Assembly (NCBI GenBank): GCA_020831635.1
Contig: JAFIGC010000029.1
Location: 1-45,241, forward strand
Length of the DNA: 45,241 nt
DNA from: Verrucomicrobiota bacterium
GTDB taxonomy: Bacteria > Verrucomicrobiota > Kiritimatiellia > SS1-B-03-39 > UBA6053
Direction: 5' to 3'
Positions within the stretch are counted from its first letter, which is position 1. Each line of letters opens with the position of its first letter. Both the position numbers and the translations under genes were made by a program. Below, piece after piece: positions 8,654 to 44,331 of the stretch. The notes below the pieces were generated by a model, which was not told the DNA's origin, ran no database searches, and saw only the letters and a program-made list of their open reading frames with translations.

Positions 8654-10986
8654 TCAACTCCTTGTTTCCCACCCACATGGGTGTCATATTTTGAAATCAC
8701 TCCGCCATCCGCAGAGAGCAGGGTCACGACCACCTTGCGGCCCTCCATGGACTCGTCCGGCACCAGCAACGAAACCTGACCGTCCGCTTCCACCTCTTTC
8801 ACGCCGGCCAGTACCGAGGTCTCGGCATCGCCGACCTCCCGCCGCAGATCCACACACAGCCCCGGCCCCGGATGCAGCACCGTCACATGACAGCGCAGAC
8901 GCCTCCACTTCACCGAATCGATGCGAGCGCCACCCGTGGGCAGACTGCCCGCCACGACATCCACCCGGATCACCGGCAGCACACACTCCTGGGGACTCAC
9001 CCCGCCATGCGCGTATTCCATGCCCGCCTTGAAGCAACATGCCCCGGGCGCGACCGCCACGGACTCCTTTGGATTCCAATGCCAGGGGACCACCGGCACA
9101 TCCGGCACGCTTTGCCCCTTGATGGCCGCGCAACGACTCCAGCGACTCTCCACCAGGAATCCCGGCAACTCCCGCTTGGGCAGCCCTCCCGGCATCCAGA
9201 GCCATCCGTGATCCGTGATCAGCGTCACCCGACGCCACCCCGCCTCCGCCAAACGGCGGACAACTCCCGCCACCTGCTCCAGCTCCCCCGGAAGCTGCTT
9301 GGCCAGATCGGCCTCAAGCTTGTGCCCCCTGGAATCGATGCGCCCGGTCTCCGCCCAGCCCCGCGCCGAAGGCGTGGAGGGGGAGGGGGACTCCAGATTC
9401 ACGACCTCAATCCCCTCCCGCCCCAAAAGTTTTAGAAAGCGCGGCTGGTTCATCGACTTGCCGTCCGGACTGAGCGGAGCAAAGTCAGCGGGCACGACAT
9501 CCCCGCTCAGCATGCCGAACACCGGCGAAACCGCAGGCTTCGCGGTCGCGGTTACGGTGGGCAAGGCGGCAAACCGGGTTTCCAGCGTTGGAGAGAAGTT
9601 CCAGGCCTCCAGATGCAGCACCAGTTCCCGCGCCACATCCAGCCGCAGACCGTCCACGAAAAGCAGACACTCTCCCTCCCGGGGGCGAAATCCCTCGGGC
9701 TTGTGGCTTGAATCCGGAAACAAAACCTGAAACTTGCTGCAAAGCTCTTCCAGCCACGGCAGGTACACCGAACGAATGGCCGCGCGGACAGCCGACTCCG
9801 AGTTCATGTTCGCATGACGAAACGCAGCCAGCGCTGCGGAGTCCGCCAGACAGCCCGACTCCGCATACCAGTCGGCAAAAGCGGCCAGCCCCGTGAAAGA
9901 GGGGATGGAGCGGGTCGCCTCCGCCAGACGGGCCAAATGCTCCAACGCCTCCGCCAACGGCGCGTCGCCCTGTTTTGCCCACACCCAGCCGCGCCGTTCT
10001 CCGTGCTCCTGCTCCAACTCCGCGATCCGCTGACGGGCGTGGTGTGCGGCCACATCGCGAAGTTTCTCCAACTCCGCCCCCAGACGCTGCTCTCGCAGCG
10101 CGTTTTCCCGGGGCCAGGCCTGCGCGTCCAAGGCCAGGCGGTCGGCGGGCTGTGCCTGGTCCAAGCGCTCGCGAATGCCGCCATATGCCTCAGGAGCCTC
10201 GCAATAGCGTTCCCAGACCAGTTGCCAGGACGACTCTTCCCGCAGCCCCAGTTTTTCCGCCGCGTAGAGAGGCGGCTTGGATTCAGGGTCAAAGCCGTAT
10301 TCATCCCGGCAGCGCGAACGAAAGGCGTGCCAGCGCTCCGAGCCCCACTCCGATTTCACCGCGTCCCCGTGTTCGATCCAAAGCAACAAATCGCGGGGCG
10401 TGTCGCCCACCACCAGCAAATCAAAATCCGAGGCCTCCAGACGTTTTCCTTGCAGACGGGACAGCGGGGTCTGCGCCACCACCGCGAGCGAGCTGTGCAG
10501 GGAAAGGCGGGTTTTGTCGTCTTTGGCCAAGTCCAATGCGGGGCCCTCCTCGGAGACCAAAAACCCCTCCACCGTCCAATCCTTGCCATTGCGATGCGCC
10601 CAGACCGTGCCCCGGTACAGCAATTCCACCAGCGGTTGCCATTCCCAGGGACACTGGTCCGCGTTTCGCAAGACATGCCGGGCCACACCCGGCAAATAAA
10701 GAATCGGGGTCTGCCCGGGAGGCAGCGGCACGTCCGGAATCTTTCCCGCCATCGCGGTTTTCAGCCAGATCACCGGACCCTGCCGTTCCTCCGGCGCGTA
10801 CTCCCCCAAGACCAACAACTCCGGCAAACGCTGTTTCAGCATCGGAATCACCGCCCCCCAGGCCCGCTCCGGGTCTGTCCACAACACCGCGCAGGGAGCT
10901 TCCTCCACCCCCGGGAAAAAGGAGCTGGCCGCCTCGCGGAGGCGTTCGATAAGTAGGTCGAGAAGGGTTACAGGGGTACTATTCAT
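8650..10986 (-). CDS. pglZ: BREX protein PglZ (alkaline-phosphatase superfamily)
   Basis: The protein is 778 aa from ATG 10986, with GAGGA about 8 nt upstream. The longer open frame to 11211 lies inside the upstream gene and is rejected. The N-terminal half is helical. The PglZ domain contains LFVDGLRLDVARELVLHLEA (about 440-460), a Thr/Ser-rich ALPTVTATAKPA stretch, and ITDHGWLWMPGGLPK near 587. These are the metal-binding aspartate and Asp-His motifs of the alkaline phosphatase-like superfamily. PglZ is an essential BREX core component. Its ATG lies within the end of the STAND NTPase gene (ATGAATAG, 8-bp overlap), so the two are translationally coupled even though the upstream gene is not a BREX core gene. 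Intact. Confidence 0.9.
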   Translation of the reverse strand: MNSTPVTLLDLLIERLREAASSFFPGVEEAPCAVLWTDPERAWGAVIPMLKQRLPELLVLGEYAPEERQGPVIWLKTAMAGKIPDVPLPPGQTPILYLPGVARHVLRNADQCPWEWQPLVELLYRGTVWAHRNGKDWTVEGFLVSEEGPALDLAKDDKTRLSLHSSLAVVAQTPLSRLQGKRLEASDFDLLVVGDTPRDLLLWIEHGDAVKSEWGSERWHAFRSRCRDEYGFDPESKPPLYAAEKLGLREESSWQLVWERYCEAPEAYGGIRERLDQAQPADRLALDAQAWPRENALREQRLGAELEKLRDVAAHHARQRIAELEQEHGERRGWVWAKQGDAPLAEALEHLARLAEATRSIPSFTGLAAFADWYAESGCLADSAALAAFRHANMNSESAVRAAIRSVYLPWLEELCSKFQVLFPDSSHKPEGFRPREGECLLFVDGLRLDVARELVLHLEAWNFSPTLETRFAALPTVTATAKPAVSPVFGMLSGDVVPADFAPLSPDGKSMNQPRFLKLLGREGIEVVNLESPSPSTPSARGWAETGRIDSRGHKLEADLAKQLPGELEQVAGVVRRLAEAGWRRVTLITDHGWLWMPGGLPKRELPGFLVESRWSRCAAIKGQSVPDVPVVPWHWNPKESVAVAPGACCFKAGMEYAHGGVSPQECVLPVIRVDVVAGSLPTGGARIDSVKWRRLRCHVTVLHPGPGLCVDLRREVGDAETSVLAGVKEVEADGQVSLLVPDESMEGRKVVVTLLSADGGVISKYDTHVGGKQGVE

Positions 10987-13900
10987 TTTCATCCTCATCT
11001 TCCATGTCATCAACTTGAAACTCGTAATTCTTGGTGTGTGTATCGATGCATTCCAACTCGGTTTCATCATCTGCGGGAAGCATGTGCATGAAGTGTTTGG
11101 AAAAGCCCCGAATCTCACCGTCGATCCAAGCGTAGGCACCTGAGATCTGCACTTCGGGTATTGAACCCTTGGGAGCCCTTCCCAAGCCCGGCGGATACAC
11201 GCGCTTCTCACCCCAGACGATCCAGCAAACCGTCAAACCGTTCTTGTCCAAGTAATCTTGGAAAAGACGTTGGTTGATCAACAGCGTATCTGGACCCGCC
11301 TCATGTGCGGAAGGATCAAACATGAATTTTTCTCCCTCTGCATTTAAGAAATCCGCGAATTTTCCAGACCACCTCAAATCCAGATCTCGAATCAAACCGC
11401 CTGTTGGCACATGTAATTCGTAGCTGTCTTCCGTAGCGCAATCGTAACCGCCTACTTCTCGCGAGTAGATTGAGGCAAGTGTCTTTATTGGGAATGGAAT
11501 TCGGGAATAATCAGGGTCCATCCATCCGTCTTCTCCAAAATACGAATCTTCATGGTAAAGTGCGGCAGGAGACCATCCGCATTCTCCGAGAAAACAACTG
11601 GCACCGCGACCGGGATTTAGTCGATCATGCCCGTAGAAATCTTTCTGTTCAGCCCATTGAAGAAAGGACTCCGCATCAGAATCTTTAATAAGGCCACCCA
11701 GCACAAAGATCACTTCGTCCCGACGCTCAACGTCCTCATATTCGTAACCCGCACCGGTTTCAGACCGTTCAGAAATGAATGAGTATCCTGTGAGCCACGT
11801 ATCGCCATCTTTGGTAACTGAGCATAGTTCATCTAGATTCCGTGTATGTGAGACATCCCTCGCCCAATCAATTGGGTCAACGGGGTAACTCAAATCGACA
11901 TTAAACCTGCACCACCAGTTGCCCTTTTTCATATCTACTGATTCTATGGGTTTCTTGAGCAGTGTGTTGGTCGGGTCGATGTCTCGGCTGAAGCCCTGCC
12001 AAGGGCCGTCAAACCGAACATCGGCTTCCTCAGTGCCAGGTCGGTTCCAGTAACGGTAATGGTCGGATACGTACCCAAGAAACTCCTGATATGCGATCCA
12101 TTGGTATTTTTTTCCGATCCGTTCCGGTTTCCTGGCATCACGACCGTGGTATCCCACTTGGTTCTGATCAAAATCCCCATGCAGATCTGGAGACCAACCC
12201 AAATCCAAAACCCGCTTCAGAATATAGTTTTGGGCCTTTTCAATGGGTAACATTTCTGGCTGTGCCACAGAAGGAGGTTGACCCGCACCACCAAGATTTG
12301 GATTTAAGGCTGGAGGCCAGGAATCATCACTCGAAAGGGGCACATCATACCACCCATTTGTTGAGATGACATATCGACAGAAGTCATCTCCCCGCACAGA
12401 AAAATCAATCCGATCCAGGGCGCTTTTCCCGGCACCATCCGAGCCCACTGCAGCCTCGCGGTATATTTCGTCTAGTTCCTCCTTCGTGGGAATAGCGGGC
12501 ATGGCGCTGCCGTAGGGAGGACGTATAAGCGCTGGGTCAAGGCCCTCCTTCGCACCTAGGCCAAGCGCCCGTTCCACAACACCACGGGCGTAGTCCCGCA
12601 TTAGCATGTGCGGGTAGGGTTCACCACTGGAGAAAAAGAGTTCGAATACGGAAGAGGCTACTTTTCCGACACCGACTGCATCATGGCTCCTCGATACGAC
12701 CCCATAGGCGACCGCATATAGTCTCTCTTTCAGATAGGGATCATCTACATCATGGAATTTGTGGATCAAGCCGTCCAAGATCTCTAACCTGCCCGTCAAC
12801 AGACTCACCAACGCTGTTGTCGCATGATCTCTTATGAAACGGTGTGGTGTGGTGAGCATCCACAGCAGAGTCGTTGAGCAAAGGCGAACAGATTCATCGT
12901 CTAAACGCGAATCTGGTGTCTGTACTTTCGCCCAGTCAATTATCCGTTCTATAGGCCCACGCTCCCCCCAGGCATGATGTAAATAGACGCTCCACCAAGC
13001 GTCCCGGTCTGGCATAGAACATGCACGTAACCGCCCATTCAAATAGTCTGCATTAAGAGGGTGCTGGGGGAGTGATGATAATGTCATTAAGACATCAAGC
13101 GTAAGCTCTTGTGTCTCAACATCGATTACCATCTCTCTCATGACTTTAATCGTGTCTTTTGTGAAAGATTCAGGTGCTCGCCAAATGAGACTATGGCGGA
13201 ACGGCTTACCCCACTTAAGTGCATCTAACCCACCGGGCTCTAAACGAGGTAACTCAACACCTGTCTTTTCCGGAAACATAACACATAATGCTTCCATCAA
13301 ACCTGGGTCGCGCCAGAATCTATTAGATTTTAGTAACCACTCCGATTGCGGTCCAGAAGATAAAATATCTCCTTCTGACCCGGCCTGTTTGGCACCTCTA
13401 AATGTGTTGAATATCGATAAGGGAATACCCTTGCGCCCCGTTTTTCCTCCTGGTTCTAAGATTTCTTCGGCCATCAAATGATGGAGCAATCTTTCATAAC
13501 AAACTCTGACAACTTCATCCTTATGCCCCCATTGGTCATAATCGACTTCGAGCAACCCTTCTGAGACCATATCGTCAAATAGCGGGGCCTGAAGCCCAAC
13601 TCCTGGGATAATTTTTCGGCAAACCTCTACAGCCTCCAGGATTGATAACCACGGCCTTTCTTCAGCACACATAGCCCGTACCACGATTTTCAAGGCCTGT
13701 TCGACCGGTCTAAGTGCTAGTTGATGATTTTGTTTTGTTGCTATCCTAGCCTCTATCCCCTGAATATAGTGACGGAATACTTCACTCACACCTTGCCGTC
13801 CCCGGGGCAACTGACTTTGGCCTGCATTTTTGAGCCCCTCACAAAGCGTCTTTAAAAATAGCGGATTTCGAAATTCTGGGTCCAGCTGTGGGGTAGATGG

Positions 13901-15436
13901 TAACTCCAACCCGTAATTTTTGAAAAACATTTTCAGGGCATCATACTCGACACCTTCAAACCCCTCATGCACCACGCGATGTTCCTTTGGGTATCTGTGA
14001 TGCGGAACCAGAATCGACTCGTAGGAGCTACGTACGGACAACACGACCCCAATCCAGGGCGATCGGTGAAGACGAGCCAACAGAGATGGCAATTCACTAT
14101 CCCACAGCCTTATCCCGTCGCCTTCATTGATCGCATCGATCATGAAAAGTGCGCGTGCATTGGCCGATTGGGCAGCAGCCTCCAACGCACCAACAAATGC
14201 TTCGGCAGAGAAGTGGCCCATATCCAACATTTCCAGACCCTGTATTAATGCATCACCAGTCCTTCGAAACTTCTGGCCCATCAGTATAATGGTTGGCAGT
14301 TTTTGGTCGATTCGTGATTTTGCGATATCACAGAGCAGGTGGGTTTTACCCGTACCGGCGTCTCCGCATAAAATTAGCAAAGTGGCATTGGCAGTCTCTT
14401 GGGCCCGTTTAAGAAATCTTATCCCGTCGCCCAGACAAACTTCAAGGTTTATAGAGCTCACCTCAGTATTCCGCAGAGGCTCCATGTAGCGTGCTGCATA
14501 GTTTTCGGTGGGTGCACGCCGCTGGGAATTAAGCTCCCGTTTACGGTCCCGTAAATCGGATTGAAAAGCATTTAACTTTTCCTGAAGGCTTTTAATCTCA
14601 TTGAACAACCCTGAAAAATCAATTTGATCAGATGGATGCAGTACAACCCCACGAAAAAGGCGAATTAGGCCATGTACTTCCTCCGCAATCGATTCGCCCT
14701 CGGTTGTAAGCTCCTCACCCAACTGCTCTCTATCACTAAGTCCCAGAACGTACTGATGACGCCGAAGCTCCCTGGCATAGTTACGCAAGCGAACCTCTTC
14801 TTCCCTTAACCGCCCGAATCGCTGAAACTCCTCCACGATCGGTAATCCAACATGAAGTTGAGGGGTGTACCGATTTCCTGCTGTAGCCCGAGACTCTTCC
14901 CATCTTGCGTGGAACCATGCATGATCAAACCCACATTCGTCGAACCAGAACCGGACACGACTAGTATGCTCAGGCTTTTGAAGGCGCTCCAAAAGTTCAG
15001 ATGAATCCCACGGGATGAACTCGACATCCATTCCTTTCGCTGCTGCCCACCGTTTCCATTTTGTAACTCGGCGGTTCCATTTTTGAAGTGCGGATGTCTG
15101 ACGTGGAAGCCGCGCATCAGGCCGATCACACGGGAAGCAAAGAAAATAGCGTTTGAGGTTGGGATGCGAATCGAGGGCTTTATTTACAGATCCGTCAGCT
15201 TGACCAAGGCTTTGGTTGTCGATCGAAAACACGTACTTCGCCTGCCATCCCCATTCAGATCCATCGGGAAACTGACAGAAACACTCCACACCCGCGTCCG
15301 GCGTGCCTTTACGAACGAACTTTGCTGCAGGGGGCGTCTCGCAACGGGCCAATTGGGCACACAACTCCTCAAATCCTGCGTGACGGTTGCCATTCAGCGG
15401 GCGGATCGAACGCCAGTCCAAGGTGAAATCAGCCAT
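10979..15436 (-). CDS. PD-(D/E)XK nuclease-STAND NTPase, Avs4-like antiphage sensor
   Basis: This 1485-aa protein has an N-terminal nuclease-like domain (about 1-150): FEEL at 22-25, GTPDAGVE with D47/E51, then WGWQAKY with Q65-x-K67. This is the Mrr/Cap4-type PD-(D/E)XK pattern with Gln in place of the usual acidic residue. A coiled-coil segment follows (about 280-320). The STAND/NACHT-like NTPase has Walker A CGDAGTGKTH (about 356-365) and Walker B ALFMIDAINEGDG (about 430-440). The hhhhDAxNE form is typical of AVAST proteins. Then come winged-helix-type helices and a ~700-residue C-terminal sensor-like region. Avs proteins recognise phage terminase or portal proteins and cleave DNA; assignment to Avs4 rests on the nuclease type, architecture and size. 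It lies between pglX (9-bp gap) and pglZ (8-bp overlap), where other BREX loci carry accessory restriction enzymes. Confidence 0.7.
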   Translation of the reverse strand: MADFTLDWRSIRPLNGNRHAGFEELCAQLARCETPPAAKFVRKGTPDAGVECFCQFPDGSEWGWQAKYVFSIDNQSLGQADGSVNKALDSHPNLKRYFLCFPCDRPDARLPRQTSALQKWNRRVTKWKRWAAAKGMDVEFIPWDSSELLERLQKPEHTSRVRFWFDECGFDHAWFHARWEESRATAGNRYTPQLHVGLPIVEEFQRFGRLREEEVRLRNYARELRRHQYVLGLSDREQLGEELTTEGESIAEEVHGLIRLFRGVVLHPSDQIDFSGLFNEIKSLQEKLNAFQSDLRDRKRELNSQRRAPTENYAARYMEPLRNTEVSSINLEVCLGDGIRFLKRAQETANATLLILCGDAGTGKTHLLCDIAKSRIDQKLPTIILMGQKFRRTGDALIQGLEMLDMGHFSAEAFVGALEAAAQSANARALFMIDAINEGDGIRLWDSELPSLLARLHRSPWIGVVLSVRSSYESILVPHHRYPKEHRVVHEGFEGVEYDALKMFFKNYGLELPSTPQLDPEFRNPLFLKTLCEGLKNAGQSQLPRGRQGVSEVFRHYIQGIEARIATKQNHQLALRPVEQALKIVVRAMCAEERPWLSILEAVEVCRKIIPGVGLQAPLFDDMVSEGLLEVDYDQWGHKDEVVRVCYERLLHHLMAEEILEPGGKTGRKGIPLSIFNTFRGAKQAGSEGDILSSGPQSEWLLKSNRFWRDPGLMEALCVMFPEKTGVELPRLEPGGLDALKWGKPFRHSLIWRAPESFTKDTIKVMREMVIDVETQELTLDVLMTLSSLPQHPLNADYLNGRLRACSMPDRDAWWSVYLHHAWGERGPIERIIDWAKVQTPDSRLDDESVRLCSTTLLWMLTTPHRFIRDHATTALVSLLTGRLEILDGLIHKFHDVDDPYLKERLYAVAYGVVSRSHDAVGVGKVASSVFELFFSSGEPYPHMLMRDYARGVVERALGLGAKEGLDPALIRPPYGSAMPAIPTKEELDEIYREAAVGSDGAGKSALDRIDFSVRGDDFCRYVISTNGWYDVPLSSDDSWPPALNPNLGGAGQPPSVAQPEMLPIEKAQNYILKRVLDLGWSPDLHGDFDQNQVGYHGRDARKPERIGKKYQWIAYQEFLGYVSDHYRYWNRPGTEEADVRFDGPWQGFSRDIDPTNTLLKKPIESVDMKKGNWWCRFNVDLSYPVDPIDWARDVSHTRNLDELCSVTKDGDTWLTGYSFISERSETGAGYEYEDVERRDEVIFVLGGLIKDSDAESFLQWAEQKDFYGHDRLNPGRGASCFLGECGWSPAALYHEDSYFGEDGWMDPDYSRIPFPIKTLASIYSREVGGYDCATEDSYELHVPTGGLIRDLDLRWSGKFADFLNAEGEKFMFDPSAHEAGPDTLLINQRLFQDYLDKNGLTVCWIVWGEKRVYPPGLGRAPKGSIPEVQISGAYAWIDGEIRGFSKHFMHMLPADDETELECIDTHTKNYEFQVDDMEDEDENE

Positions 15437-19047: not shown

Positions 19048-20091
19048 CTATTGAAAAAGCGCGTTCCAGAAATCGCGGTTCGATAAATCTATCGGGAAAT
19101 CATATTTGTCACTCATATGGTCAAGCACTGGATCAGCTTCACTTTCTTCAAGGAAAGTGGATAGATCTGAAATACCCTTCTTGGCTCTCGCTACTTTAGG
19201 ATGATCTTCATTTGCAACCAAGTGGCCGAACCCGCTTTCCACTAAGTATTTACCTTCAACATCGGGTGTGATGTCGTCAGGCTCAAAATCCGAAAAGCGT
19301 TTCACTGTCAGATTGCGCCCCGCATTTTCCTGGTACAATGCTTCGCAAGTTGGGCATGGTATTGGTTTTAGGGCTTTTTTCACCTCTTCCACCATCACTT
19401 GAAATTTTTCCAGTGCAGTAGAACTTGTAGATAAAATCTCCTGAACCTCTTCCGCATCCTTACAGGCCTTAAGTTGTTCACACATTTCTTTCAGTTCGCG
19501 GACCTTCTGCTCCCTGTCAGCGATCTCTTCCATTGCCGCCTGGTACTTATCCTGCTCTAATTTCAGCTCTTCGCGATCAACCATATTCGGAATCGTTAGC
19601 TGTTGTAGTATGGGAGAAAGGGCAACCAAAAAACCATCTCGTTTCGCTGTCCACCGTGCCGTCGGGAGTTCACGGTTCATGACGCGTTTAATCGCATCCC
19701 GCAGGTTATCCAGACCAGAGGAGTCGTCGACTTTCTCGATTTGAATGCCTGTCAAAACCCCCTTCATTTTGTCCCGTTTTGCAGGAGGGACGATCAATGG
19801 AAAAAACTCGTGTTCCATGGCCCAAGTTGCACCCAACTCACAAAGGCAGAATTCACTAGCCAGATAACTGGGGGTGATCAGCGCGATCACCAATGCCGGA
19901 TTTTTTATTTTCTCACGAATGAAGTCGGGAAAAGATTTTCCAGCGGGAATCCCCATCCCTTCGAGCGATGTACAGAAAATCTGATCCGCCGAGAGGTTGC
20001 ACCCCGTCTGCAACAGATCCGTCAGTTTGTCAGCCAGTTCCTTGTCGGCGGCGGCATGGCTTAGAAAAATGTGTGGAGGGGAATCGCTCAT
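19048..20091 (-). CDS. TIR-domain effector with coiled coil and unknown C-terminus
   Basis: The protein is 347 aa. The TIR domain (about 5-130) begins HIFLSHAAADKELADKL and has FCTSLEGMGIPAGKSF (BB-loop region) and ITPSYLASEFCLCELG. Glu85 is in the position of the catalytic Glu of NAD-cleaving TIRs. Residues about 175-250 form a Glu/Lys-rich coiled coil. A CPTC pair follows near 257-260, then a ~85-residue C-terminal domain (KYLVESGFGHLV...) that I do not recognise. Bacterial TIR proteins with an intact Glu usually deplete NAD or make a cADPR-type signal upon infection. The TIR is N-terminal and no partner sensor domain is fused, so sensing may lie in the C-terminus or in another protein of the locus. 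It is preceded by a 185-bp gap with inverted repeats and followed 8 bp later by pglX. Confidence 0.8.
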   Translation of the reverse strand: MSDSPPHIFLSHAAADKELADKLTDLLQTGCNLSADQIFCTSLEGMGIPAGKSFPDFIREKIKNPALVIALITPSYLASEFCLCELGATWAMEHEFFPLIVPPAKRDKMKGVLTGIQIEKVDDSSGLDNLRDAIKRVMNRELPTARWTAKRDGFLVALSPILQQLTIPNMVDREELKLEQDKYQAAMEEIADREQKVRELKEMCEQLKACKDAEEVQEILSTSSTALEKFQVMVEEVKKALKPIPCPTCEALYQENAGRNLTVKRFSDFEPDDITPDVEGKYLVESGFGHLVANEDHPKVARAKKGISDLSTFLEESEADPVLDHMSDKYDFPIDLSNRDFWNALFQ

Positions 20092-27362: not shown

Positions 27363-28454
27363 TTAACGGACACAGAATGAATTCCTGGATTGTATATGGT
27401 TGAGACTGATCCGGATTTCAGCTTGTTGGTTCAACCTTTTTGCCTCAATTTTCCGTAGGCGCCTAAGGACGTCATGTACGTCGTTTTCAAAAAGTGACCC
27501 TTTTTCAACCAGCCTTTGCGACTCCAATGCCGAGACCAGGACGTTTGCCTGGCCTAAAAATGCTTGAAGAATATTATTACGGGCCTGTCCATATTTCTCG
27601 CATGATAGGTGGTCAAAAAGCTCAAGTGGACTGGGGTCGTAATTGGCTTGTAATTTAATGTTCTTGTGGGTCAGTTCCTCACGAAGATTCAGTCCGGCAC
27701 GTGTCGCCTCCAACTTTACAAAACGAATGAAATCAGGATCAAGTTCTTTTTGACTCAGCTCGGCTCGGAGAACCAACCCATGCCATCTGTTCAGAAAAAG
27801 AACGCGGAGAAATGACCGCGCGTCCAGATTGCCAACTGGGGGAGACCATTCAAAATTCTTTTTTAAACGGTAATGCGACCAAAAATCCTGTTTCATTTCC
27901 ACTAGTGACAACTCTAAAAGTCGTTCGGCCTTCATGTGCTCGGGTAAGCTTGTATCCGGCCTTCGGTTCAAGCTCAATTGATCAATTTCTTCCAGTAGCT
28001 CGTATTTTGACTCATTATGATCGCTGCTAAATCGAGAATGCCGCAGATAGAAGTGCTCTAGAGGTAACTGTTTGAATTCTGACGAATGCCAGACATGCTT
28101 ACAGACTTCTACCAGATAAAAGGGATGTTTGTTTTTGAACCTTATCAGCTCTTCTTTACCGACCGCCACAGATATTGGTTTCTCGTTTTGTTCAGTTTCG
28201 GATGCCTTGGCAAGTTGAAAAACTCGATCCACCGCGAAGCCTTTGTTTCGGGGTTCCACCAAGGCATGTGTCAGTGCAAGAAGTGTCGCGTAAGCTTTGA
28301 AAAGATCATCGCCCTCAGGATTGCCATTCGTTTCGCGGGGAAACCAAGCTTCACCTTTTTTGTTGTAGTGTTTTAACACAAAACTTTGTGCCAGCACTTC
28401 AACCAAGGCATCCACGCCATTTAAAAATCCATCGCCAAGCAAAGCTCCTTTCAT
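27363..28454 (-). CDS. Unknown 363-aa protein coupled to the integrase
   Basis: Its ATG overlaps the integrase stop (ATGA, 4 bp), so it is co-translated with the integrase. The sequence is mostly helical, with no membrane segment or signal peptide. Recognisable stretches are MKGALLGDGFLNGVDALVEV at the N-terminus, KHPFYLVEVCKHVWHSS near 110, LLELSLVEMKQDFWSHYRLK near 180 and a basic coiled C-terminus (VLRRLRKIEAKRLNQQ). I cannot place it in a family. Conservation with the integrase suggests an accessory recombination or island-maintenance factor, or an orphan defence gene placed at the integration hot end. Confidence 0.65.
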   Translation of the reverse strand: MKGALLGDGFLNGVDALVEVLAQSFVLKHYNKKGEAWFPRETNGNPEGDDLFKAYATLLALTHALVEPRNKGFAVDRVFQLAKASETEQNEKPISVAVGKEELIRFKNKHPFYLVEVCKHVWHSSEFKQLPLEHFYLRHSRFSSDHNESKYELLEEIDQLSLNRRPDTSLPEHMKAERLLELSLVEMKQDFWSHYRLKKNFEWSPPVGNLDARSFLRVLFLNRWHGLVLRAELSQKELDPDFIRFVKLEATRAGLNLREELTHKNIKLQANYDPSPLELFDHLSCEKYGQARNNILQAFLGQANVLVSALESQRLVEKGSLFENDVHDVLRRLRKIEAKRLNQQAEIRISLNHIQSRNSFCVR

Positions 28455-30064
28455 GATTCACGCATATATTGGTTTGAACTGACGAGTCGTGAAATCTTCG
28501 CGATATTACGTTCCAAATCTCTACCATCTGCAATCTCAGCTGCGATACGTTTTATTTCATCCATCCCGCAATCTTCTCTGGCCCTTTCCCCGGTAAGTAC
28601 TCCCGGCATTTTTTGGATCATGACCGATTTGAAATGCTCGCGGTCGGGGCGGAAATAGTGCTTGAGCACGATGTCGACCGTTTTGTGGCCGGTAATGCGA
28701 CGTACCAGTTCCATGGGCACCCCGGCAGAGAGCGCAATCGTCACAAAGGTAACCCGAAGGGCGTGCCAGTCTCGTACGGAGGCCGCGTTCTTGCGGCCCT
28801 CCACTTGAACGTTGGTGGCTTTGCGGACCGCCAGGCGTGGTGTGGCGGATTCTTTTCGGCGGATTCGCCCCCCGAGCTTGTTTTCGATGGCCTGAAGGTC
28901 ACCACTGATCTGACCCCGGCTGTATCCGTGGCGTTCATGGATGACGCGATAACTGGCACCGGCAAGATATTCTTTCAAAACGGTTTCAAGCCGTTTTCGT
29001 CGTGCGCTTCCGGGCTTCGTCAGTTCCTCAATGGCGGCCATGCCGTCGGCTTCTGCCCGATGAGCAGGATACAAGGGTTCGATTTTTTGAGGGCCGATCC
29101 CGGTGAGCGCCTGGGTGACGATGTATTTGAACCCCCAGGAAATCCGGCTCTGCCCGGTCCGGGTTTCGATCAAGTCAGCAGCCTCGGAAAACACAAACGG
29201 CCCGTCATGGGGCTGCTTTTCCAGGACAGCGTGTAACGGTCCGAAAATCGGGATTTCGAGCCGTTCACGGGTTTTGCCTGTTTTGCAGTTGATGATGCCC
29301 GCCTGTAAGTCCACATCCACCCAGCGAAGGCGGCACACATCCCCCCGCCGCATTCCCGTGCAGGCGGCACAGACAATGAGCGGATGGAGCAGGGTGTCGG
29401 ATGCAGACACATCAAAAATCTTTTGAAGCTCATCGGAAGTGAAGGGGATCCTGTGGATGGTCTCCTTGTCCGTCGACCCTCTGAGCACGATGCGCCGGAA
29501 TGGATTCGACATCCCCACAGGTAAAAACCGTGTGAAGGCGCTGCGCAGCAGATTGATCGCCTGCCGAACCGACTCGTCCGTGAGTTCCTCTTGAAGGCAT
29601 TCCAGATAGGCCCCCGCATCCGATTCGCTTACTTCGTGCAGGTATCCCGCTTTTCGTGGCGGGGTGTTCATGAAATCGATGAAACGCTGAAATTTGCTGT
29701 CACAGGCGGCCAAGTGCTTTTCCGTCACCTTGCGTCCCCGGGGCATCCCTCGCCAGAGACTCGCAAGATCCGTCAATTTGGCGTATTCGACCTTTCGCCC
29801 CGTCTTGCTCTCGATCAGTCTTTCCGTCAGATGGTCCGCCCGGCCCTTTTGCCCCGCCTCAGCTTGAAGGGCCGCCAGTTTTTCGGTGGCCCGATCACGG
29901 CTGTTCTCAAAATCCGAATCACCTTCTCCCCGGAGATCCTCCGGCGGGGTTCCTTCCCACTCCAAACCAAGGTTGACTTCCATGGTTTTTCCGTCCACCA
30001 TGTACCTGCCATAAAAATAGGGCCTTAAGTGGCCGTTCCTGTCTTTTTTCAGCCGTAATCCCAT
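28451..30064 (-). CDS. Tyrosine recombinase (island integrase) with HTH insertion
   Basis: The protein is 537 aa from ATG 30064 (MGLRLKKDRNGHLRPYF), rejecting the longer frame to 30151. The arm/core-binding domains are N-terminal (about 1-200). The catalytic domain has box-I Arg in TGMRRGDVCRLRW (about 239), HALRVTF (about 431), ITGHKTVDIVLKHYFRP with Tyr near 470, and an acidic C-terminal tail. Between box I and the HxxR motif there are about 190 residues, far more than usual. They include YPAHRAEADGMAAIEEL and a helix-turn-helix-like stretch, YLAGASYRVIHERHGYSRGQ with ISGDLQAIENKL (about 360-400). It sits next to the tRNA-Gly fragment, facing inward, so it is the enzyme that inserted the island. 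Confidence 0.88.
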   Translation of the reverse strand: MGLRLKKDRNGHLRPYFYGRYMVDGKTMEVNLGLEWEGTPPEDLRGEGDSDFENSRDRATEKLAALQAEAGQKGRADHLTERLIESKTGRKVEYAKLTDLASLWRGMPRGRKVTEKHLAACDSKFQRFIDFMNTPPRKAGYLHEVSESDAGAYLECLQEELTDESVRQAINLLRSAFTRFLPVGMSNPFRRIVLRGSTDKETIHRIPFTSDELQKIFDVSASDTLLHPLIVCAACTGMRRGDVCRLRWVDVDLQAGIINCKTGKTRERLEIPIFGPLHAVLEKQPHDGPFVFSEAADLIETRTGQSRISWGFKYIVTQALTGIGPQKIEPLYPAHRAEADGMAAIEELTKPGSARRKRLETVLKEYLAGASYRVIHERHGYSRGQISGDLQAIENKLGGRIRRKESATPRLAVRKATNVQVEGRKNAASVRDWHALRVTFVTIALSAGVPMELVRRITGHKTVDIVLKHYFRPDREHFKSVMIQKMPGVLTGERAREDCGMDEIKRIAAEIADGRDLERNIAKISRLVSSNQYMRES

Positions 30065-30130
30065 GAAAAAACCGTCCTTTGTTTTCGTTTGAAGCACTAT
30101 GACGCAAAATGGGAAAACGCGCAAGCCAAA

Positions 30131-30180
30131 AGGGGACAAAGTAGGGGACACCAGCTTTTATTTTCACAAAAACACCTTAA
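30131..30180. repeat. Short direct repeats between integrase and attachment site
   Basis: AGGGGACA occurs at 30131-30138 and 30143-30150 (12-bp period), and AAACAC occurs twice near 30166-30187. The position between integrase and core site fits arm-type integrase binding sites. Confidence 0.35.
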
Positions 30181-41441: not shown

Positions 41442-41599
41442 GTTGGTTCTCCAAGAGAAGGGATCGAGAGGGGATCGAAGTTTCAGGCAATGATACGCTG
41501 TAGATACTCATTATTCGGGGGAACGAAAAGGAAAAGTTCTGAAAAGATCGGATTTTTTTCATCGATTGGGCTTGTTCTGATTTGGCAAAAGCCTATACG

Positions 41600-41790
41600 T
41601 GGTATTGCAACCAATCGAAAAAGCATCTGTTAAACGGAAGGTCGTGAAAATCGACTGCGGACGCGCCGCTGTAACCGGATACAATGTTTCCATGCCACGC
41701 TCATCACTCTCCATTGTATGTGGGCGGAAGGGGAAACAAAGGTCAAGCCGGGAGCCAGAAGACGTAACAGGTGTCTTCAACGGTGTCTCA
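41600..41790 (+). promoter_or_regulatory. Cobalamin (B12) riboswitch
   Basis: Closing stem P1 pairs CATCTGTTA (41624-41632) with TAACAGGTG (41765-41773). Conserved core elements appear in order: ACGGAAGGTCGTGAAAATCG, GCGGACGCGCCGCTGTAACC (the B12-box CCRCTGTAA) and the 3' AGCCGGGAGCCAGAAGAC. A variable stem pairs ATACAATG with CATTGTAT (41680-41719). Downstream GGTGTCT/AGGACATC segments can form an alternative hairpin before the PEP-CTERM gene ATG at 41850. It should repress the downstream operon when cobalamin is plentiful. Confidence 0.85.
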
Positions 41791-41849
41791 CGAGGACATC
41801 AAGACCCAAACCCAAACGCCTCCGCGAATGAGGCAGAACAGGAATACAT

Positions 41850-42449
41850 ATGCAGACGTCCTTACGTCAACGCGCGGTTTTCACCGCGATCGCCGCCTTG
41901 GCTTTTGCCGGGGTGAGCGCACCCGCCCAAGCCAATCCCATTGTCTCCAACATTGATGCCACCTTCGGCTCGGGGGCGGAAAACATTTTTTTCGTCGTGG
42001 ACTGGAATGACGGTCAGAATCCCGATTCCAGAACCTGGCAGTTGAATTTTGACTCCGGGGCCTACGGTTCGGTCTATGAGGCCATGGTGAATCTGGAATC
42101 CTTGGATTTTGATTTGAGCTTTATGTTTAACACCGACTGGGGCGATCCTTTCCTTGAGGCCATTGCCTTCGACGACGGGATTCACATGCATAACCGGGAC
42201 ACCACCAATGGCGAAAACCCCAGGGACTGGTGGTCGTTTTGGTCGGGTGACGCCACGGGATCCACTTGGGAAATGTCTGGGGCGGGGGTTTCGACCACCT
42301 CAGTCGTTTCTGGAAAAGCATATGGGTTTACGTATGAGGCGGATTGGAATCATGCTCCATCCGCACCCAATGCCATTCCCGAGCCGGATATGATCGCTTT
42401 GTTTGTCATCGGATTGGGGGTCTTCACATGGCTTCGCCGGCGTTCTTGA
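41850..42449 (+). CDS. PEP-CTERM sorting-domain exported protein
   Basis: This 199-aa protein has a signal peptide (AVFTAIAALAFAGVSAPAQA). The mature Gly/Asp-rich domain includes NIFFVVDWNDGQNP and WNHAPSAPN. The C-terminal tripartite anchor is IPEPDM (PEP), a hydrophobic IALFVIGLGVFTWL helix and RRRS. PEP-CTERM proteins are processed by an exosortase and reach the cell surface or matrix. Position directly after a B12 riboswitch suggests a part in cobalamin uptake or response. The Gly/Trp repeats could bind a ligand; inference. AGGA precedes ATG. Confidence 0.8.
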   Translation: MQTSLRQRAVFTAIAALAFAGVSAPAQANPIVSNIDATFGSGAENIFFVVDWNDGQNPDSRTWQLNFDSGAYGSVYEAMVNLESLDFDLSFMFNTDWGDPFLEAIAFDDGIHMHNRDTTNGENPRDWWSFWSGDATGSTWEMSGAGVSTTSVVSGKAYGFTYEADWNHAPSAPNAIPEPDMIALFVIGLGVFTWLRRRS

Positions 42450-43591
42450 ACAAAGCGGCAGGGGTATCGGCAAGGGACTGCCGATCTACGGTAGCGCGAC
42501 AGTCCCTGTCGCGAACGTTAAGGTTATCGGCAAGGGACTGCCGATCTACGATCCTTTTTCTCGCCCTGATCACCTCCATGGTTCGAGGGGACTCCCCTTG
42601 GGCCGTGGAGGTGACCTCCTACGGCGCGGGCGAGGGGTTCTATGCCGGATATACGCTGAAAAATTCGGCCCTGGGCCGTCCCACGGTGGACACCTATGAG
42701 GATGCATTTGTGCAAAACCCTTCTGTCACCGTGGTGCCCGCATTTCCGCCTTGGGACCCGACCGAATTGGTTTCCATTGGCGGGGGCGGGCATCTGGTGC
42801 TGAAAATGGGGAGGGCGATTGTGAACCATCCCGACAACCCGTACGGCGTCGATTTCCTGATCTTTGGCAACAGTTTTTTCCAAGGTTCCGGTCTCTACAA
42901 TCAGAATGCGAATGATCCCCGAACCTACACGTTGGCCGGTCAGGATAAAATCGGCATCAACACCAAGAATGGCGTGGTTTCCGTGAGTGTCGATGGAATA
43001 CATTGGTTCTATTTTCAAAATCAGCCCCGCCTGGGCATGTTGCCCACCTTGGGCCGGGTTTGGCTGGAAGAGGAAGGCGAATGGGGCGACCCCACCGACC
43101 CGACGGTGCCACCCGATCCGGCTCTCCATGTGAAAGATCTGGCCAACATGCCCTTGGTGAAGTTGATCGAACATTACCGTGGCGGCGCGGGCGGAACGGG
43201 TTTCGACCTGTCCGACTTGATTGTTCCGCCAGGGAAATCCCTGCCGAAGAAATTCCACTATGTGCGGATTGAAGTGCCCGTCGGACAATTCCGCACCGAA
43301 ATCGATGCGGTGTCCGTGGTACGGCCCGCCAGCGAGCGCCGTCGCTGGGAAATTCGGCATTTTCCTTGGGTCCAGGACCCCGCCGTGGAAAAAAATGCCG
43401 TCGGGATGAAACTGAATTCAAGCGGGGCACCCGCGCTTCTGCATCCGGATGCCGGGGAACTACCGGGCTGGGTGCTGGAATGGTCGCCTTCCTTGCGGCA
43501 ACCCGATTGGCGGGATGTCGAAGCAGAAACCCCGACCGGAGCCCATGTCTTTTTCCGGGGCCGGCGTATCGAGGAGGAGGCTTCGCCATGA
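42428..43591 (+). CDS. Exported cell-surface protein in B12-regulated operon
   Basis: 387 aa from ATG 42428, overlapping the previous stop by 22 bp. The start is uncertain: the first ~45 codons read through two copies of a hairpin repeat (twice SARDCRST). The hydrophobic signal-like stretch ILFLALITS begins right after it. ATG 42578 would lack that stretch. The mature part has VEVTSYGAGEGFYAGYTL, ELVSIGGGGHLVLKMGRAIV, NPYGVDFLIFGNSFF and LGMLPTLGRVWLEEEGEW. This is a type of cell-surface protein I recall from PVC bacteria beside cobalamin riboswitches, but I know no named domain. The end overlaps the pseudopilin gene by 4 bp. Confidence 0.65.
   Translation: MASPAFLNKAAGVSARDCRSTVARQSLSRTLRLSARDCRSTILFLALITSMVRGDSPWAVEVTSYGAGEGFYAGYTLKNSALGRPTVDTYEDAFVQNPSVTVVPAFPPWDPTELVSIGGGGHLVLKMGRAIVNHPDNPYGVDFLIFGNSFFQGSGLYNQNANDPRTYTLAGQDKIGINTKNGVVSVSVDGIHWFYFQNQPRLGMLPTLGRVWLEEEGEWGDPTDPTVPPDPALHVKDLANMPLVKLIEHYRGGAGGTGFDLSDLIVPPGKSLPKKFHYVRIEVPVGQFRTEIDAVSVVRPASERRRWEIRHFPWVQDPAVEKNAVGMKLNSSGAPALLHPDAGELPGWVLEWSPSLRQPDWRDVEAETPTGAHVFFRGRRIEEEASP
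42463..42550. repeat. Duplicated hairpin repeat, 60-bp period
   Basis: TATCGGCAAGGGACTGCCGA, TCTACG occurs at about 42464-42490 and 42525-42550, each forming ATCGGCA-AGGGAC-TGCCGAT. Between them GCGACAG-TCC-CTGTCGC forms a third hairpin. They sit at the 5' end of the surface-protein gene. Confidence 0.75.
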
Positions 43592-44331
43592 AACGCGGTG
43601 GGTTTACCCTGATTGAGATGCTGGTGGTTATCGCCGTGATTCTGCTGCTGGGTGCGATGACCGTTCCTATGGTTGGAAGGGCGCTTGAACGCGGAAAAAC
43701 CACCCAATGTTTGGCCAACCTGCGGGCCATGAGTCAGGGCGTGGGCGTGTTTCTGGTCGAAAACCAAGGGCAGTTCCCGCCCGCATTGGTCTCGGGCGGC
43801 GGCAACCAAAAAGGCTGGGACTTTTTCATCAGCGAAACCGGCAAAGTCGAGCCCGGCTGGATTTGGCAGGAATACGGTGCCAACAACATTCTGCAATGTC
43901 CCTCCTTCCGAGGCGCGGACAACTGGCAGGAAGTGCCATATACCGGATACAACTACAACGCCAGTTATCTGGGGGGCATGTTCATCGAGCTTCGGGGGCA
44001 GGTGATTCGGGATGTGCCTTCCGCCAATATTGCCCATGTGCAACACCCAGGACGCACGGCCATGTTTGGCGATGGCGAGTACGTCGGCGGCACCAATAAA
44101 TTCATGCGCGCGCCCTTGCCCGGCCCCCTGGACGCGGATTTTTCCGGTCGGGAAGGCGGCACCCAGGGCTATCGACACGGCGGACATACCCACGTCGCCT
44201 TTGTGGACGGCCGCGTGGACCGACTTCGTCCCGTAAGCCCGCCCTCTGGTTTTCAGGGCTCGATCGGGGAGGGGACCGGATTTTTGTCGTCGGACAATTC
44301 CCTCTATGGCGCCGCCCCAAACCCCGAATGA
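43588..44331 (+). CDS. Pseudopilin / H-X9-DG processing-associated protein
   Basis: This 247-aa protein has a type IV-like prepilin leader, GGFTLIEMLVVIAVILLLGA (Phe after Gly, Glu at +5), followed by the long N-terminal helix. The C-terminal HGGHTHVAFVDG fits the H-X9-DG motif of the large PVC/planctomycete prepilin-processing-associated family. Cys is in LQCPSF. It is exported and membrane-anchored, then likely processed by a prepilin peptidase. Strong GAGGAGGAGG precedes ATG 43588, which overlaps the surface-protein stop. Likely assembles or displays the B12-responsive surface proteins; inference. Confidence 0.85.
   Translation: MKRGGFTLIEMLVVIAVILLLGAMTVPMVGRALERGKTTQCLANLRAMSQGVGVFLVENQGQFPPALVSGGGNQKGWDFFISETGKVEPGWIWQEYGANNILQCPSFRGADNWQEVPYTGYNYNASYLGGMFIELRGQVIRDVPSANIAHVQHPGRTAMFGDGEYVGGTNKFMRAPLPGPLDADFSGREGGTQGYRHGGHTHVAFVDGRVDRLRPVSPPSGFQGSIGEGTGFLSSDNSLYGAAPNPE

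Follow-up and report, generated by a model that had tools for sequence, protein, structure and literature searches.

A probable corrinoid-scavenging operon with a PEP-CTERM protein and a pseudopilin behind a cobalamin riboswitch in Kiritimatiellota

Introduction

Among the B12 scavengers, Bacteroides combines cobalamin riboswitches with a set of exported corrinoid-binding proteins, as in the BtuG, BtuH, BtuJ (DUF4465), BtuK and BtuL system. B12 binding has been shown for the DUF4465 proteins BtuJ1/2 (PMC12751083), and eight distantly related DUF4465 proteins, D5EK51 of Coraliomargarita among them, also bind B12 (PMC13398666). Another described group is the transcobalamin-like SLBB clade, to which belong animal transcobalamin and intrinsic factor as well as the bacterial DUF4430 proteins. 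The mark of this clade is a hairpin insert after the helix, through which it contacts B12 (PMC1796856), and its bacterial members have been predicted to scavenge B12 (Burroughs et al. 2007, PMC1796856).

Here we analyze a stretch of 45,241 nucleotides, hereafter the window, in which a cobalamin riboswitch heads three overlapping genes: A, encoding a PEP-CTERM protein, B, encoding an exported protein, and C, encoding a pseudopilin (Table 1). In our view the operon highly probably serves to scavenge corrinoid, with intracellular cobalamin repressing it and A and B acting in surface capture together with a dedicated pseudopilin. A literature search, with subscription literature and preprints outside its coverage, found no paper in which a cobalamin riboswitch is connected with a PEP-CTERM operon or a pseudopilin.

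Table 1. Features of the riboswitch-headed operon, in window coordinates
Feature	Coordinates	Strand	Evidence
Cobalamin riboswitch aptamer (RF00174)	41583..41785	+	cmscan 55.8 bits, E 2.6e-11, full-length match
Leader, aptamer to gene A	41786..41849	+	AGGA Shine-Dalgarno-like stretch just 5' of ATG
Gene A, exported PEP-CTERM protein, 199 aa	41850..42449	+	PEP-CTERM signal, AlphaFold2, Foldseek
Gene B, exported protein, 387 aa	42428..43591	+	ATG common to close relative; family alignment
Gene C, class III prepilin-like protein (pseudopilin), 247 aa	43588..44331	+	N_methyl motif, pilin structures matched

Riboswitch and operon organization

The aptamer covers positions 1-189 of the RF00174 model and, at 55.8 bits, exceeds the gathering threshold of 31.5, so the well-formed cobalamin riboswitch of the initial annotation is a complete one. 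It belongs to the sole Rfam RNA family detected in the window and is the single RF00174 copy genome-wide (6.0 Mb Kiritimatiellota assembly, a 96.5% complete MAG). Repression by corrinoid is usual for this riboswitch class. A scan of the leader returned no terminator-like site on the + strand, suggesting that the riboswitch may act at the level of translation. ViennaRNA folding assigns the leader an ordinary stability (z -0.24) and no clear expression platform, and no sigma-70-like promoter was detected.

Genes A and B overlap by 22 bp, and B and C by 4 bp (ATGA). Both values had been given exactly in the initial annotation, and similar overlaps are kept in five relatives (22-34 bp for A-B, 4 bp for B-C). 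The assignment of a PEP-CTERM gene, an unclassified exported gene and an H-X9-DG pseudopilin gene behind the riboswitch likewise holds for all three. The next + strand gene, from 44448, encodes a ribosomal S4-family protein and lies outside the A-B-C set; no transporter gene is found within the window operon. Elsewhere in the window, a BREX-type defence cluster (BrxL, PglZ, PglX, BrxC, BrxA) occupies positions 6602-26815 of the minus strand. Interspersed with its genes are those for an Avs2-like STAND protein (10979-15436) and a TIR protein (19048-20091), and a gene that reads as integrase-like lies at 28451-30151.

Association of the riboswitch with the operon in other genomes

Within the family, the riboswitch is present in nine of 11 genomes, at ten loci altogether, Kiritimatiellota bacterium B12222 (complete chromosome CP120722.1) possessing two riboswitches and two such operons. 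At all ten loci, the window included, the riboswitch is followed by genes for a surface protein, a protein of type B and a pseudopilin of type C, an architecture that argues against a chance association. Three surveys extend this finding. A search of 84,980 species genomes for the B family returned 43 loci, of which 36 carry RF00174 upstream on the same strand; two of the seven others (L040, L041) have B near a contig start. The A family is matched in 28 of 289 genomes of the phylum, and at 20 of these 28 loci the 1.5 kb searched upstream contains a cobalamin-class riboswitch in the same orientation, a count that includes four already known family loci. The C family returns a strong match in 54 of 193 genomes of the class, one per genome except for the two of B12222. 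The upstream DNA of 40 C loci, all outside the family, contains a riboswitch in 29 cases, every one on the same strand and 1.2-4.1 kb upstream of C. This amounts to 29/31 when nine loci with less than 2.4 kb of upstream sequence are left out, and the two loci truly devoid of a riboswitch are L166 and L169. The query profiles of the A, B and C surveys include riboswitch-linked sequences, and the surveys therefore test extension to new genomes and are not blind samples. Genomes with one or two riboswitches each would, by our estimate, show the association by chance at a rate of about one in a thousand. The association, whose presence in other genomes the initial annotation had left to be checked, is thus found from the side of each of the three genes. 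Found repeatedly, across dozens of related bacteria, and with a first gene whose product is predicted to fold like the B12-carrying part of transcobalamin (see below), the riboswitch-controlled set very probably serves to scavenge B12. As a separate observation, in Desulfobulbus and Desulfosarcina (L047, L061) the A and B genes lie near c-di-GMP riboswitches, L061 having a cobalamin riboswitch as well.

A predicted transcobalamin-like fold for protein A

The C-terminus of A (IPEP...LRRRS) comprises the PEP motif, the hydrophobic stretch and the basic tail, and its PEP-CTERM scores are narrowly above the cut-offs (TIGR02595, 18.9 vs 16 bits; Pfam, 20.8 vs 20.7 bits). The A family has 22 members with a mean column identity of about 27%, for which Pfam reports sorting signals only, plus a dockerin domain in one member. 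PDB searches with the A and B sequences, single or as profiles, returned no useful match. The DUF4430 profile (PF14478) matches none of the 22 members, and hhalign of A against two DUF4430 proteins gives a probability of 3. Some members weakly match the SCO2322 family (NF040672; best, 1.9e-5), and the assignment of the window A as a DUF4465 protein was ruled out, PF14717 giving no match.

The AlphaFold2 model computed from the family alignment (pLDDT 83) exhibits a strand-strand-helix topology followed by a strand pair and then by further strands. When it was submitted to Foldseek against 350,542 PDB chains, ranks 1-15 were taken entirely by transcobalamin and intrinsic factor chains, with probabilities of 0.99-1.00 and E values between 1e-3 and 3e-2, while rank 16, an unrelated structure, fell to 0.12. 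The TM score is 0.68 to the transcobalamin beta domain taken alone (5np4), and the gene B model returned no transcobalamin-type match with the same pipeline. The predicted transcobalamin-beta-like domain, an SLBB-type beta-grasp, would cover residues ~37-165. In our reading of the model, its strand pair may represent the hairpin insert of the clade, so that a beta-grasp fold, a strand pair after the helix and transcobalamin/intrinsic factor neighbours occur together in the prediction. We infer from this model that A may bind corrinoid through its transcobalamin-like beta-grasp domain. SLBB domains bind various ligands (PMC1796856), and A could instead be an SLBB-type domain for another soluble ligand, corrinoid being contacted by B or by neither protein. 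Such a role would suit the divergence of A in the window, which together with the G003 copy is among the most diverged and misses several aromatic/Arg positions conserved in the family, and also the Phycisphaerales and other loci where B lies behind the riboswitch and no A was detected. Nevertheless, the model selects the transcobalamin clade specifically among the solved beta-grasp folds, and we regard a different ligand as unlikely.

Elsewhere in the phylum, at L108 (1225-2555), a pseudopilin gene directly follows one for a DUF4430 (transcobalamin-like) lipoprotein, a second pairing of transcobalamin-like and pseudopilin proteins. This pair adjoins a gene that, by reading, resembles UroD/corrinoid methyltransferases.

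Exchange of A for DUF4465 proteins

In three relatives (L012, L013 and L014), the first gene of the operon encodes a DUF4465 protein with a PEP-CTERM tail (E 9e-53, 3e-55 and 7e-50, respectively). The A slot is hence occupied there by a proven B12-binding family, which makes inaccurate the earlier description of the operon as genes with no known B12 role. DUF4465 is also found upstream of C in eight of nine further C loci run against Pfam; these eight had been preselected by a match to our own two-sequence profile, and the Pfam result therefore confirms their DUF4465 identity and gives no frequency. In the second operon of B12222, the A slot is filled by a different PEP-CTERM protein devoid of any Pfam domain. 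This 359-residue protein (L019, 4844-5923) contains repeats that read like those of a beta-propeller, and it is possibly BtuG-like.

Proteins B and C

Protein B belongs to no Pfam or NCBIfam family. The alignment of its own family reveals a conserved NPYGIDLLVFGN motif, and hhalign indicates that B is homologous to the B protein of the DUF4465-type operons (98.9% probability, E 1.8e-17). Its match with the LIC_13355 family (NF033170) is weak, 12.4 bits against a cut-off of 120, and B may be a distant relative of these surface proteins. The B model returns F5/8C or CBM-like hits in Foldseek, and this identity was set aside as the matches are weak, with a probability of 0.84 at best. A and B are fused into a single polypeptide at three loci (L057, L063 and L066), which argues for a joint function. 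In the window, a short repeat at 42458-42545, with GGCAAGGGACTGCCGATCTACG occurring twice around CGCGACAGTCCCTGTCGCG, lies within the region coding for the B signal peptide and makes it longer than in relatives.

Protein C carries the N-terminal class III prepilin motif (PF07963, 26.5 vs 21.2 bits) and an H-X9-DG motif, HGGHTHVAFVDG. Its family is characterized by the motifs TGYNYN, GANKFMR (GTNKFMR in the window copy) and GFLSxDN, and, over longer conserved stretches of the family alignment, by FGDGxYxxGANKFMR, GTQGFRH and GFLSxDNxxYDL. At first look there are ~75 candidate C-like loci per genome, and C represents a specific subfamily among these dozens of pilin-like candidates, present as a rule once per genome and located behind the cobalamin riboswitch. 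It is the truly odd part of the system and its constant component.

PEP-CTERM proteins and pseudopilins often relate to surface structures. As both are common in these genomes, the pseudopilins with the ~75 C-like candidates, the riboswitch might drive a surface or pilus programme, such as attachment or biofilm formation, at low B12, with proteins that do not bind corrinoid. The transcobalamin fold of the A model and the operons in which proven B12 binders of the DUF4465 family stand in for A speak against it, as do the BtuF/D/C-like and cobO genes found in some operons (see below) and the usual confinement of the C family to one member per genome behind a cobalamin riboswitch. We judge a programme of this kind very improbable.

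Links to B12 genes, need and supply

At L066, the riboswitch is followed by the A-B fusion, C, a Peripla_BP_2 protein, an ABC ATPase and a FecCD protein; the solute-binding protein and the permease score well with the BtuF and BtuC models, below the equivalog cut-offs. At L044 and L045, the riboswitch is followed by B and then by cobO/btuR (checked with Pfam on L044). Together with the riboswitch association, the predicted fold of A and the DUF4465 exchange, these co-operons strongly support the surface capture of cobalamin suggested by the initial annotation. The operon product could also be a corrinoid trap or store, secreted or carried on vesicles, instead of a cell-bound uptake device. A function of this kind has been proposed for BtuJ/BtuL of Bacteroides: BtuJ proteins are active on vesicles, whose release is promoted by BtuL, a protein that does not itself bind B12 (PMC12751083). 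B is likewise a non-DUF4465 companion, and the window operon has no transporter. However, A possesses a membrane-sorting tail, C is a membrane-inserted prepilin, and the BtuF/D/C-like genes belong to the same run as the operon at L066, making a trap or store a doubtful alternative to the cell-bound device.

B12-dependent MetH is encoded in all 11 family genomes and CbiC, of the corrin-ring synthesis, in none, indicating a need for B12 without its synthesis. EcfT/CbiQ was found in none of the 11, and ECF transport was consequently rejected as the missing importer. BtuF (PF01497) together with full FecCD matches occurs only in four family genomes (G005, G007, G008 and G009); neither BtuF nor BtuC was found across the four draft genomes of the window's genus, and in the 96.5% complete MAG of the window itself PF01497 is absent and FecCD returns only weak partial matches (<=35 bits). 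Such absences in draft genomes are not proof, though the four genomes of the genus agree. With MetH present and CbiC, BtuF, BtuC and ECF components not detected, the organism looks like a corrinoid-dependent auxotroph devoid of the usual inner-membrane importer. One may ask whether C assembles into a short pilus or pseudopilus by which corrinoid-loaded A/B would be conveyed through the envelope, a B12 import route that would replace BtuFCD and ECF transport; we hold this to be improbable.

As for the outer membrane, the window genome encodes six proteins with a TonB-dependent receptor plug domain, none of them riboswitch-linked or identified as BtuB, and neither of two receptor candidates compared with NCBIfam scores above a BtuB cut-off. 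Given these six receptors, and BtuF/BtuC in other family members, the earlier proposal of a system distinct from BtuB-type uptake is unproven. At L027 (525-8883), a 596-residue TonB-dependent receptor conserved in the family is located near genes that resemble those for methylmalonyl-CoA mutase subunits and, by reading, is a candidate BtuB.

Proposed function

In the corrinoid-scavenging operon that we favor, scarcity of corrinoid would lead the riboswitch to permit production of A, B and C. Protein A would be exported, anchored through exosortase sorting, and would hold corrinoid by its transcobalamin-like beta-grasp domain, with B as its partner surface protein. C would be a pseudopilin dedicated to the system, probably holding or positioning the capture proteins in the envelope, and the bound corrinoid would be passed to an envelope transporter encoded elsewhere.

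Riboswitch-controlled surface scavenging of B12 would accordingly extend from Bacteroides to Kiritimatiellota, Verrucomicrobiota, Planctomycetota and others, drawing in two families, A and B, without assigned function. If C acts as proposed, a first specific function would be assigned within the pseudopilin families of PVC bacteria, which are very large and unexplained. The analysis also exposes a gap, namely B12-needing organisms with no detected corrin-ring synthesis gene, BtuF/BtuC or ECF-type importers, and the transcobalamin-like fold predicted for A, a protein of Gram-negative bacteria, is relevant to the origin of the animal B12 carriers.

Comparison with known systems

The H-X9-DG / DUF1559-type pseudopilins of PVC bacteria share with C the prepilin N-terminus and the H-X9-DG motif, but C differs from them by its own motifs, its normally single copy per genome and its tie to a cobalamin riboswitch. 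The LIC_13355-family surface lipoproteins are approached by B only through a match far below the cut-off of their model. The transcobalamin-like SLBB clade shares the predicted fold of A (PMC1796856), and A resembles it further in being exported, in a B12-scavenging context, in bacteria without synthesis; in contrast with that clade, A is missed by the DUF4430 profile, no alpha/alpha toroid partner was seen with it, and it has no CbiO/CbiQ neighbours. Lastly, the Bacteroides system likewise associates a cobalamin riboswitch with exported proteins, and its BtuJ family, DUF4465, fills the A slot in related operons. However, the window operon is devoid of BtuB, uses PEP-CTERM sorting in place of lipoprotein anchoring, and possesses a predicted transcobalamin-like A, a B from an unrelated family and the constant pseudopilin C. 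The best reading by analogy is that this operon would work like the BtuG/H/J layer of Bacteroides without being a member of that system.
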